From: Acaryochloris sp. CCMEE 5410
Lineage (GTDB): Bacteria; Cyanobacteriota; Cyanobacteriia; Thermosynechococcales; Thermosynechococcaceae
Length of the DNA stretch: 64,000 nucleotides
Assembly (NCBI RefSeq): GCF_000238775.2
Contig: NZ_AFEJ02000001.1
Span: 1,922,001-1,986,000, forward strand
Direction of reading: 5' to 3'
This document shows, in pieces, positions 34,207 to 37,822 of this stretch. Below the pieces are notes generated by a model. The model did no database searches. It was not told the DNA's origin and saw nothing but the letters and a program-made list of their open reading frames with translations. The position numbers were made by a program, and so were the translations under genes. The number at the start of each line of letters is the position of its first letter. Position 1 is the stretch's first letter.

Positions 34207-36333
34207 ATGTCCCATCCCAGTCAACAACCGGGGTCTTGGCACAAACCCATCTCTACCCTGCTACTACTCTCGGGCATGGTCGCGGGAACCGTCTTTGTCA
34301 GCTCAAATGTGTTGCAATTCGAATCCAAATCCCATGCCCAATCCCCCAAGCTATCTCAACCCAAACAAGAGGTAAATCAGAAATCAAAACCGTCTCCACC
34401 CACCGGAGGGCTTTTTGCCGAGGTGGATGGCAAGAAACTGTCTTTTCCCCTTAAACAAACTGATGTCGAAGCCGATATCTCCGGTAATCTGTCGCGGGTA
34501 GAGGTCAAGCAAACCTTTACCAATCCCTACGACCGACCATTGGAAGCGATCTATCAATTTCCCCTACCCGAAGATGCCGCCGTGGACGATATGGAAATTC
34601 GGATTGGCAATCGGATTATTCGCGGTGTGATCAAAGAGCGGCAAGAAGCCAAACAAATCTATGAAACGGCTAAGCAGGAAGGTAAAACCGCTGCTCTCCT
34701 AGAGCAGGAGCGGGCTAATTTATTTACCCAATCCCTCGCCAATATCGTGCCCGGGGAAACCATAGAAGTGGTGATTCGCTACACTAACAGCTTGGAGTTT
34801 GAAGGGGGAGATTACGAGTTTGTCTTTCCCACGGTGGTTGGGCCTCGCTATATTCCCGGCGATCAGATTGATGCCGCAGGTAATACCACTCGGGTCACCG
34901 ATGCTGCCAAGATTACACCTCCCCTCCTGCCGCCTAGTCAGCGGTCTGGTAACGATATCAGTATCACGGTCAATTTAGATGCGGGGGTACCGATACGGAA
35001 TTTGCGATCGCCCTCCCATCCCATTCTCACCAGCAAAAAAGGCCAGCAAACCCAGGTCAAACTGGCCAATCAAAAAACCATCCCCAACAAGGATCTAATT
35101 CTCCGCTATCAGGTGGCCAGCAAGCAGACCCAAGCCACACTCCTAACTCAGTCTGACCAACGGGGCGGTCACTTTGCCACCTACTTAATTCCAGCCTTGA
35201 AATATAAGTCGAACGAGATTGTCCCCAAGGACGTAGTGTTCCTGATTGATACCTCCGGGTCTCAAAGTGGCCCACCCATTGTCCAATCTAGAAAGCTAAT
35301 GGCCCAGTTTTTGGACAAGCTCAATCCCAACGATACTTTCAGCATTATCAACTTCTCCAATACCACCTCTAAACTGTCCCCAAAGCCCCTGGCCAATACC
35401 CCGGCTAATCGCAAAAAGGCCCTGGACTATATTAAAAAACTGGATGCCAATGGCGGGACAGAGCTGATGAATGGCATCAATACCGTTGCCGCCTTTCCCC
35501 CGGCCCCAGATGGACGCCTGCGCAGTGTGGTTCTACTCACGGATGGTCTGATTGGGGATGACGAAACCATCATTGCTGCCGTGCGCGATCGTCTGAAGCC
35601 GGGGAATCGCATTTACCCCTTTGGCGTCGGTTTCTCCACCAATCGTTTTTTGCTGGATCGTCTGGCAGAAGTGGGTCGAGGAACTGTTGAAGTCGTCGCC
35701 CCCAAAGACTCCGCTGAGAAAGTGGCTGCGAAGTTTGTCAAAACCATTAACAAGCCCGTCTTGACCGATATCGAAGTCTCCTGGGTCGGTCCTGGTAAAG
35801 GCCCCGATATTTATCCCCTGCGAGTCCCGGATCTATTTGCCAACCAGCCCCTGGTTCTCCACGGGCGCAAGCAGGATGGCCAATCCGGCAAGCTGAAAAT
35901 TACGGGCCGAATGGCAGGTGGAAAACCCTATAAGCAGGTATTGGACGTTAAGTTTGATGCCTCTGGCAATGAGGCGATAGCCCAGCTCTGGGGCCGGAAT
36001 CGCATCAAAAGTTTAATGAACCAGATGTATGGCCGAGAAACGGACCCGGCTGTTAAGCAGGTGCTTGATACTGCCCTCGCCTATCGCTTGCTCTCTAAAT
36101 ACACCGCCTTTGTCGCTGTTACCGAAGAGATTCGCGTCGACCCCAACAACCCCAACCTCAAACAACGGGTACCGGTTGATCTGCCGGAAGGGATGAAGCT
36201 GACCAACCCAGCGGCCCATGCTACCCCGGAACCCAGCGAAATTCTCGGTTACCTGATTGCTCTATTTGGCATCTTCCTGGTTATGGCCAAAAAGCATGGC
36301 TTGAAATGGTTGCCCACCCGGAGGCAGTCATGA
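34207..36333 (+). CDS. Exported VIT/vWA protein with PEP-CTERM-like sorting tail
   Basis: 708 residues. An N-terminal hydrophobic signal (~18-38; ISTLLLLSGMVAGTVFVSS) is followed by a VIT domain (~70-220; RVEVKQTFTNPYDRPLEAIYQFPLP) and a vWA domain (~335-500) with complete MIDAS residues DTSGS and LLTDGLIGDD. The C-terminus has TPEPSEILG followed by a hydrophobic helix (YLIALFGIFLVMA) and basic residues KK...RR: the PEP-CTERM sorting pattern. The next gene is an exosortase whose start overlaps the stop of this gene, so this protein is the likely dedicated substrate. Anchored or secreted after cleavage. ATG 34207 is preceded by AAGGAG. Confidence 0.93.
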   Translation: MSHPSQQPGSWHKPISTLLLLSGMVAGTVFVSSNVLQFESKSHAQSPKLSQPKQEVNQKSKPSPPTGGLFAEVDGKKLSFPLKQTDVEADISGNLSRVEVKQTFTNPYDRPLEAIYQFPLPEDAAVDDMEIRIGNRIIRGVIKERQEAKQIYETAKQEGKTAALLEQERANLFTQSLANIVPGETIEVVIRYTNSLEFEGGDYEFVFPTVVGPRYIPGDQIDAAGNTTRVTDAAKITPPLLPPSQRSGNDISITVNLDAGVPIRNLRSPSHPILTSKKGQQTQVKLANQKTIPNKDLILRYQVASKQTQATLLTQSDQRGGHFATYLIPALKYKSNEIVPKDVVFLIDTSGSQSGPPIVQSRKLMAQFLDKLNPNDTFSIINFSNTTSKLSPKPLANTPANRKKALDYIKKLDANGGTELMNGINTVAAFPPAPDGRLRSVVLLTDGLIGDDETIIAAVRDRLKPGNRIYPFGVGFSTNRFLLDRLAEVGRGTVEVVAPKDSAEKVAAKFVKTINKPVLTDIEVSWVGPGKGPDIYPLRVPDLFANQPLVLHGRKQDGQSGKLKITGRMAGGKPYKQVLDVKFDASGNEAIAQLWGRNRIKSLMNQMYGRETDPAVKQVLDTALAYRLLSKYTAFVAVTEEIRVDPNNPNLKQRVPVDLPEGMKLTNPAAHATPEPSEILGYLIALFGIFLVMAKKHGLKWLPTRRQS

Positions 36334-37145
36334 GTCTAGCTCAGTCCCAACCAGGGGCGAAGACTTGGCTCGTTGCCATTGGTATGACCCAAGTCTTGCT
36401 CCATCTCCTCCTCGTTCGTCGCAGCCAATATCCCTACCTCTTACCCGCCAGCAGTATCTTTTGGGCCGCCACCGCTATGCAGCTTTACACCCAGCGTCAT
36501 TACTTATCCCTTCGCGACCATCGAGCCACTTGGGGTGGACTGCTGTTGCTGGCAGGCGTGGTTTATCGAGGGCTTCATGCCTTTGAATCTGACTATTTTC
36601 TGCGGCTCTATCCTCTACTAGTGCTGGTGAGTTTGAGTCTCTTAGCTTCCGGCGTCCAGGGATTGGCGCAATATCAAGGAGCGCTTTACCTCTTAGGCTT
36701 CTTTGCCCTGCCTTGGGAGCTGCTCTACCTGCTCGATTTCACCACCTGGACCACTCAGCTTTCTACGATGCTGCTACGACTGATGGGCTTTGCCGTCCAT
36801 CAACAGGGCTTTACCATTGCCCTGCCAGGGGGTGCTATTGAGGTCTATAACGGTTGCTCTGGGGTACGGTCGATTACCCAGCTTCTGGGCTTGGCCTGGA
36901 TATATGTGACTTTAACCGCGACGCAGGGCCAACAGAAATATCTGATCCTACTGGGAGCGATCGGTATTGGCTTCTTTGCTAATGGCTGTCGTGTGGCTCT
37001 CCTCGCCATTCTCTCCAGCCAACCGGATACCCTTCACTACTGGCACCAAGGCGATGGGTCGCTCTTATTTTCGCTACTGGCTGTATTGCTGCTGGGGCTG
37101 CTGCTCCTCAGTTTGCCGACTCGCCAAGGGAGGTATTTATCATGA
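36330..37145 (+). CDS. Cyanoexosortase (exosortase A type)
   Basis: Exosortases are membrane cysteine transpeptidase-like enzymes that process PEP-CTERM proteins. The 271-residue protein has about eight hydrophobic helices. The catalytic residues are in YNGCSGVRS (Cys), NGCRVALLAI (Arg) and HYWHQGDG (His). ATG 36330 is chosen because GGAGG (36320-36324) is 5 nt upstream and it overlaps the TGA of the vWA gene (ATGA); a longer frame opens at 36306. Similar to the cyanoexosortase A group as I remember it. The downstream partner overlaps by 4 nt. Confidence 0.92.
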   Translation: MSLAQSQPGAKTWLVAIGMTQVLLHLLLVRRSQYPYLLPASSIFWAATAMQLYTQRHYLSLRDHRATWGGLLLLAGVVYRGLHAFESDYFLRLYPLLVLVSLSLLASGVQGLAQYQGALYLLGFFALPWELLYLLDFTTWTTQLSTMLLRLMGFAVHQQGFTIALPGGAIEVYNGCSGVRSITQLLGLAWIYVTLTATQGQQKYLILLGAIGIGFFANGCRVALLAILSSQPDTLHYWHQGDGSLLFSLLAVLLLGLLLLSLPTRQGRYLS

Positions 37146-37822
37146 TCAGATGGTGTAGAAACAACCCACTAGCAGTGGTTTGGGGAGTCACGGTTTTGGT
37201 ATGGGGAGTTGCGATCGCAATCTTCCAACCCCAAATCCCTCAAGTTGCGCCCTACCCATTTCCTCAAGTCATTCCCCTTGCAGATTGGACCTTTACTGAT
37301 AGTCAGCCCCTCACGCCTGATCAAACCCCAGACCCTCAAGATATTCCTGGTGAAGTGGTGTCTGGGCAGCGGTATCACTACCACCAAGGCGATACCCATT
37401 TACACATTGAGATGAGATATCTGGCCCAGACCAATGGCGACCTAAAAGCCCTGATTAAACATCAGACCGGCAGTTTAGGCACCGTGCTGCAATCCGTAGA
37501 AGGCGTGGGGGAATTCAGCCTATTTACTCAGGGCGCTGCTAGCCAGCTAGATGCCTGTATCAACCCTCAAGGAACCAGTACCGTCACCAGCGATCAGTTC
37601 AAGCGCAACCGTACCCTATACGATTGGCGATCTGGGCGTTTCCTCGGCTGGATCCTCGGCCAAGCGCCTCTCCATGACAATCGTTGTCTATGGACCCAGA
37701 TGACCTTATCGACCTCAAGCGATGCGACCTCGGCAGTGCAGGCTCAGGCTTTAACGTCTACCTGGACAGACTGGCATCAGTGGTGGCAATTTCACTTTCC
37801 GCCATCAGCCAAGACCCCGTAA
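37142..37822 (+). CDS. Cyanoexosortase-associated protein
   Basis: 226 residues with one N-terminal membrane helix (~10-28; LAVVWGVTVLVWGVAIAIF) and an outside domain. The pattern PLADWTFTDSQPL, then SGQRYHYHQGDTHLHIEMRYL and a late CLWTQMTL, matches the family that accompanies cyanoexosortase A, analogous to EpsI partners elsewhere. Its ATG overlaps the exosortase stop (ATGA). The three genes form one operon ending near a TCCCCC/GGGGGA hairpin at 37876-37893. Confidence 0.85.
   Translation: MIRWCRNNPLAVVWGVTVLVWGVAIAIFQPQIPQVAPYPFPQVIPLADWTFTDSQPLTPDQTPDPQDIPGEVVSGQRYHYHQGDTHLHIEMRYLAQTNGDLKALIKHQTGSLGTVLQSVEGVGEFSLFTQGAASQLDACINPQGTSTVTSDQFKRNRTLYDWRSGRFLGWILGQAPLHDNRCLWTQMTLSTSSDATSAVQAQALTSTWTDWHQWWQFHFPPSAKTP

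Follow-up and report, generated by a model that had tools for sequence, protein, structure and literature searches.

A VIT/vWA gene with an exosortase and its partner

The stretch of DNA analysed here, which we call the window, comprises 64,000 nucleotides of Acaryochloris sp. CCMEE 5410 (contig NZ_AFEJ02000001.1, positions 1,922,001 to 1,986,000), and we focused on three overlapping genes at positions 34,207 to 37,822 that encode a VIT/vWA protein with a PEP-CTERM-like tail, a cyanoexosortase A and the system-associated protein of that enzyme, hereafter the partner. The features of this cassette, all on the forward strand, are as follows (pLDDT, predicted local distance difference test):

34207..36333, + strand: VIT/vWA protein, 708 aa, presumed secreted cargo (open reading frame, family scores)
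34246..34305, + strand: hydrophobic segment near the N-terminus (residues 14-33), either a signal peptide or a membrane anchor (hydropathy scan)
34450..34782, + strand: VIT domain, residues 82-192 (PF08487, 132.8 bits)
35230..35691, + strand: vWA domain, residues 342-495 (PF13768, 68.4 bits)
36226..36330, + strand: PEP-CTERM-like tail with PEPSEILGY, hydrophobic helix and basic end (sequence; helix 676-696 in a low-confidence model)
36320..36324, + strand: GGAGG, probably the ribosome binding site for the exosortase gene (sequence)
36330..37145, + strand: cyanoexosortase A, 271 aa from the preferred start (TIGR03763 score, sequence)
37142..37822, + strand: cyanoexosortase A system-associated protein, 226 aa, a single N-terminal helix followed by a beta-rich domain (TIGR04153, 207.1 bits; model pLDDT 76.6)

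An earlier note on this DNA had described a PEP-CTERM-like tail closing the VIT/vWA protein, a VIT/vWA stop that overlaps the exosortase start, and an exosortase gene that overlaps its partner. The tail is there, with the PEP motif, the hydrophobic helix and the basic C-terminal end that define such tails structurally (sequence PEPSEILGYLIALFGIFLVMAKKHGLKWLPTRRQS, 36226-36330), and it scores just below the curated cut-offs. The first overlap is also real, although the start had to be corrected: the exosortase open reading frame extends at full length from 36306 to 37145 (279 aa), and the preferred start is the ATG at 36330, which shares an ATGA with the VIT/vWA stop (36331-36333) and has the GGAGG upstream. 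A start is possible at the equivalent place in the exosortase gene of a close relative, and the partner ATG at 37142 overlaps the exosortase TGA (37143-37145) in the same ATGA pattern. Promoter and terminator scans at the cassette yielded about as much as shuffled sequence.

The vWA motifs DTSGS, GGTEL and LTDG lie at residues 348, 416 and 444 of the cargo, and judging from them the metal site is probably intact. The predicted structure of this protein is of low confidence (pLDDT 51), and its sequence relatives in the PDB are PARP4 and the inter-alpha-trypsin heavy chains H4 and H1. The exosortase scores 167.8 bits against TIGR03763 (cyanoexosortase A, cut-off 150) and the partner exceeds the TIGR04153 cut-off of 100. 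Cys176, Arg221 and His239, which we take to be the catalytic residues of an exosortase, are invariant in 10 of 10 aligned exosortases. A PDB sequence search gave no convincing relatives for exosortase or partner, and for the partner fold Foldseek returned nothing with an E value of 0.001 or lower; with VIA-align the fold gave Z scores up to 8.8 against a mixed set of matches. As modelled, the partner is an anchored beta-rich domain.

Recurrence of the cassette and co-variation of tail and enzyme

The same trio is present in two other Acaryochloris genomes (L069 and L070, with VIT/vWA identities of 97% and 93%) and, in diverged form, in six other cyanobacterial families. The VIT/vWA gene adjoins the exosortase gene, the partner gene or both in Coleofasciculus (L071), Microseira wollei (L072), Xenococcaceae (L073 and L074) and Leptolyngbyaceae (L075), the genes being arranged tail to tail in L071-L074 and in the same direction, as in the window, in L075. 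The adjacency had seemed unique to the window genome among the 386 genomes of our phylum sample because most of the full-length VIT/vWA proteins in that sample are without a tail. For this reason we made a profile (A1) from tailed C-termini, and searching it in 388 genomes of the order of genome G229 led us to reject that uniqueness. The A1 matches fell into two groups. In one, the match extended across the tail and the proteins measured about 1000-1080 aa; in the other it ended before the tail, and most proteins measured 770-900 aa.

An exosortase gene, a partner gene or both lay on the same stretch in 17 of 35 tailed VIT/vWA loci, versus 0 of 35 tail-less ones. The stretches covered approximately 4-16 kb round each gene, and contig ends truncated some of them among tailed and tail-less loci alike. 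All proteins with a readable tail from the searches make up the tailed set; for the tail-less set we went down the long list of such proteins and took part of it. The adjacent loci (the window, L083, L084, L130-L133, L138-L143, L145, L146, L157 and L160, with exosortase and partner 2.7 and 4.8 kb off in L138) come from seven families (f1, f16, f17, f46, f49, f50 and f58). At least one exosortase is encoded in all 34 genomes with a tailed VIT/vWA protein. Separately, exosortase matches at G268:C1:1188151, G147:C1:1164867 and G183:C1:1172557, all in one genus, carry 8 to 11 in-frame stops and are decayed genes.

The exosortases next to tailed genes are also related to one another. A quick tree was built from 86 exosortases, 20 of them cyanoexosortase A controls taken from the phylum sample. 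In it the 16 adjacent enzymes fell within a single 23-row clade (Shimodaira-Hasegawa-like approximate likelihood ratio test support 99), and all 20 controls and both other exosortases of the window genome fell outside it. The remaining seven rows come from six genomes with the tailed gene elsewhere or on another contig (G488, G571, G538, G464, G211 and G441) and from G391, so that the clade is confined to genomes with a tailed VIT/vWA protein, except for the G391 row. G391 (L065) was rejected as a clade exosortase without cargo, and is uninformative, because its contig stops at the gene start; G211 was likewise rejected as an exception, its exosortase and partner being located elsewhere in the genome. 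A previous 79-row tree pointed the same way with weaker support (81), placing 18 adjacent rows within a clade of 26.

Tail sequence and enzyme go together. Where the genome encodes a clade exosortase, 23 of 23 VIT/vWA tails fit PEP..[ILVMF][ILVF]G[NYS], the residue at PEP+6 being N in 19, Y in three (Acaryochloris) and S in one. Without a clade exosortase the fit drops to 2 of 13 tails (12 genomes plus a second copy in G450), all 13 being counted although a hydropathy filter would drop six; the non-fitting tails read LGTA, LGMA, LTN, LAV, LAT, FAQ and similar. None of 28 ordinary PEP-CTERM tails, taken from 12 of the genomes compared here, fitted (the ninth residue was L in 26). They came from 30 loci chosen as the best-scoring matches to TIGR02595, and hence lean to the consensus of that model. 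Only N or Y looks distinctive at this position, because two ordinary tails of the window genome have S there.

The window genome (G000) encodes three cyanoexosortase A genes and, in a genome search, one VIT domain. One of the other two exosortase loci (L014) has a small membrane protein gene directly after it, and at L015 the exosortase shares one reading frame with a TIGR04153-like domain, again with a membrane protein gene of similar type behind it; neither locus has a VIT/vWA neighbour. The fused frame (L015:5906-7432) has comparable open frames of 517-569 aa in other genomes. The earlier note had called the exosortase the cargo's own: it is not the sole enzyme, and given three such genes the phrase rests on the phylogeny and the motif. 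The note had also stated that few or no PEP-CTERM tails elsewhere in the genome would support dedication, and had named many such tails, with no VIT/vWA link to exosortases in other cyanobacteria, as evidence against it; the link recurs, and a TIGR02595/TIGR04155 scan found just three other places above a cut-off, which supports the reading of the note. These three are a lower bound, because the models miss divergent tails and nearly missed that of the window. They lie by a polysaccharide tyrosine-kinase-like gene, by glycosyltransferase-like genes and by a transposase-like gene (names assigned by reading), and the three Acaryochloris genomes have 3, 1 and 1 PEP-CTERM matches. One PEP-CTERM gene (L018:3517-4308) has its tail apparently broken off just ahead of a transposase-like gene.

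This setting leaves room for a different explanation, namely that the exosortase is a general one serving every PEP-CTERM protein of the genome, and that its place beside the VIT/vWA gene is incidental. The two further exosortase genes and the three further PEP-CTERM places speak for it, as do two other tails of the genome, PEPST[IF]LGS, which resemble PEPSEILGY. However, an incidental place fits poorly with an adjacency that recurs across families in two gene orientations, with a clade that keeps to genomes with tailed cargo and with a tail motif that tracks this clade, and we regard this explanation as unlikely. Less likely still is that the tail is a plain membrane anchor which is never cut, the exosortase acting on something else. 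Processing of the tail is deduced from sequence, and the tail misses both curated models; yet in 8 of 8 aligned tails the PEPxxIxG residues P, E, P, I and G do not vary, nor does one K, and the enzyme is absent near all 35 tail-less proteins.

The reading that we consider probable, with reasonable confidence, is that the genes form a dedicated cell-surface sorting cassette, in which the clade exosortase and the partner process the VIT/vWA tail. Several observations weigh against it. The tail scores 14.0 bits with TIGR02595 (cut-off 16) and 12.8 bits with TIGR04155 (cut-off 21.6) in the genome scan. Eighteen of the 35 tailed proteins have neither exosortase nor partner on the fetched stretch, and no partner was found on the stretch in L130, L131, L142 and L143 despite a nearby exosortase. 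G446 and G424 keep the motif without the clade enzyme. The p value for adjacency (Fisher, 1.2e-6) treats related genomes as independent, and that for the motif (1.3e-7) ignores ancestry common to the compared groups. In addition to the three exosortases of the window genome, which count against a sole-enzyme claim, other tailed genomes often have many further PEP-CTERM matches (up to 78) and more than one exosortase, and for this reason strict one-to-one use is something we infer.

Kinase fusion and evolution of the cargo

In most relatives the cargo is part of a larger protein. A Ser/Thr kinase domain (Pkinase, Pfam) precedes VIT and vWA in all five relatives tested (L071-L074 and L081), which have a cysteine-rich start before the kinase and, in several cases, a hydrophobic stretch between the kinase and VIT. 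Outside Acaryochloris, by sequence pattern or reading, the kinase is present in 31 of 32 tailed proteins, the start of the remaining one (L139, genome G568) being unreadable because it is cut by a contig end. Two proteins that a strict pattern had scored as kinase-negative were reassigned, L074 after Pkinase was found by Pfam and L151 after it matched the kinase pattern in another scan. The window protein gave no N-terminal Pkinase match in the Pfam scan, and the kinase pattern was found in none of the tail-less VIT/vWA proteins, two of which (L163 and L165) have an FHA-like N-terminus. Genome G450 has a second, diverged VIT/vWA copy (L153:4470-7679) with a drifted tail and a kinase that looks degenerate, with HRN for HRD.

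A tree of the VIT domain, rooted on four alphaproteobacterial sortase-type proteins with long branches, grouped the 58 tail-less cyanobacterial proteins in a single clade (support 100) nested among tailed proteins. This suggests that the kinase-fused, tailed form is ancestral in cyanobacteria and that tail and kinase may have been lost together in one branch; Acaryochloris seems to have lost the kinase alone, keeping tail and enzyme. That the Acaryochloris cassette is a functionless vestige, decaying after this loss, is very improbable: the kinase is indeed missing from a protein that has it in nearly all tailed relatives, but the three genes are all open, catalytic residues and tail are intact and the VIT/vWA protein is well conserved in the other two Acaryochloris genomes.

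Proposed mechanism and known systems

Gene order, protein families, catalytic residues, tail, clade, co-variation and kinase fusion can be read from the sequence, and together with the dedicated sorting cassette that we favour they suggest the following steps. The VIT/vWA protein would cross the inner membrane by its N-terminal signal, with the C-terminal helix keeping hold. The neighbouring clade exosortase would then recognise the extended tail PEP-x-x-[IL]-[IL]-G-[N/Y] and, by analogy with the exosortase family, cut near PEP with its Cys/Arg/His site and hand the new C-terminus to a putative acceptor, a lipid or surface polymer; the TIGR04153 partner may help the enzyme. In most relatives the cargo would form the outward-facing half of a transmembrane Ser/Thr kinase, and processing there would therefore finish a receptor; in Acaryochloris, without the kinase, just the surface half would remain. 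This suggests that the work of exosortase-type enzymes can include finishing receptors in addition to slime proteins, and if kinase-fused forms are indeed processed, exosortases would act on signalling receptors.

Animal inter-alpha-trypsin heavy chains are ester-linked to glycosaminoglycan. A bolder and doubtful extension is that in many cyanobacteria a dedicated exosortase cuts the extracellular VIT/vWA helix of a kinase receptor and joins its C-terminus to a surface polymer. Because a kinase-fused polypeptide would cross the membrane a single time, before the VIT domain, the polymer-tied C-terminus would connect the outside to the kinase, tying matrix to cytoplasmic kinase through one polypeptide, and polysaccharide tethering of VIT/vWA proteins would then recur from these animal chains to bacteria with sortase, rhombosortase or exosortase.

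The closest known parallel is the marine system of TIGR03788 and class GN sortase TIGR03784, which, like the window, has a homologous VIT/vWA cargo, a C-terminal tail and an overlapping sorting-enzyme gene, so that the likeness drawn in the earlier note is borne out. In L078 the cargo scores 713.9 bits with TIGR03788, the overlapping sortase gene 188.1 bits with TIGR03784, and the tail reads VELPQTAT, helix and basic end, with similar tails in L076, L077 and L079. In contrast to this LPxTx tail and sortase, the window protein ends in a PEP tail, has an exosortase and a partner as neighbours and reaches 512.4 bits with TIGR03788 (marine_srt_targ), below the cut-off of 551.65. The note was also correct in suggesting that sorting enzymes of unrelated type share a kind of cargo, but this had been printed in 2011: passages of the rhombosortase paper (PMC3237569) report LPXTG, GlyGly-CTERM and PEP-CTERM tails in the VIT/vWA family. 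They add that enzyme and target tend to adjoin where a genome has a single target, a pattern that the window cassette matches. The same source gives Verrucomicrobium spinosum a VIT/vWA homologue with a PEP-CTERM tail and names exosortase as its sorting enzyme, although its section on this family makes no mention of a dedicated exosortase beside the gene, of a partner or of a kinase.

Other relatives are more distant. NCBIfam names tie the XrtN system VIT protein (TIGR04477), MSEP-CTERM (TIGR04286) and TIGR02921, all with a VIT-like region, to exosortase-type sorting, but the window protein scores 12.5, 13.2 and 11.7 bits against their cut-offs of 250, 150 and 200. Cyanoexosortase A with a TIGR04153 partner is found in other cyanobacteria and belongs to the same families, whereas the window enzyme comes from a distinct clade linked to a single cargo. 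Cyanoexosortase B of Nostoc punctiforme likewise acts on PEP-CTERM proteins but differs in being a single enzyme with many such substrates and a polysaccharide locus; a crtB mutant had an altered PEP-CTERM exoproteome, with roles in motility, biofilm and scytonemin (passages of PMC12188702). According to a recent paper, substrates of such enzymes apparently remain on the cell surface and carry a new group on the cut C-terminus (passages of PMC11980579). In our literature searches on VIT with exosortase, VIT/vWA with sortase and cyanobacterial kinase with VIT, PMC3237569 alone describes the shared cargo among the passages retrieved; those of PMC1262709, PMC1569441 and PMC7517822 returned for VIT/vWA terms contain no such protein, and a search on XrtN gave nothing relevant. 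Within the scope of these searches, what is new is the dedicated cassette of cyanobacteria, the exosortase clade with its co-varying tail motif and the kinase fusion.

Exosortases have usually been studied as many-substrate enzymes linked to slime production, in which the cut and the acceptor are difficult to establish. A natural set of one enzyme and one cargo with a recognisable tail motif would be a clean test system for both, and the succession in evolution of a sortase tail, an exosortase tail, loss of the tail and loss of the kinase would make specificity readable from sequence.

Two neighbouring genes complete the picture of the locus. A FAD-dependent oxidoreductase gene (window:38163-39188) has a paralogue at L014:9359-10447, each close to an exosortase locus of the same genome, and no match to it adjoins the cassette in L069 or L070. 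Upstream of the cassette, a divergent AAA_35 gene (window:32711-34045) is kept in other Acaryochloris and has a counterpart of 42% identity upstream of the L075 cassette.

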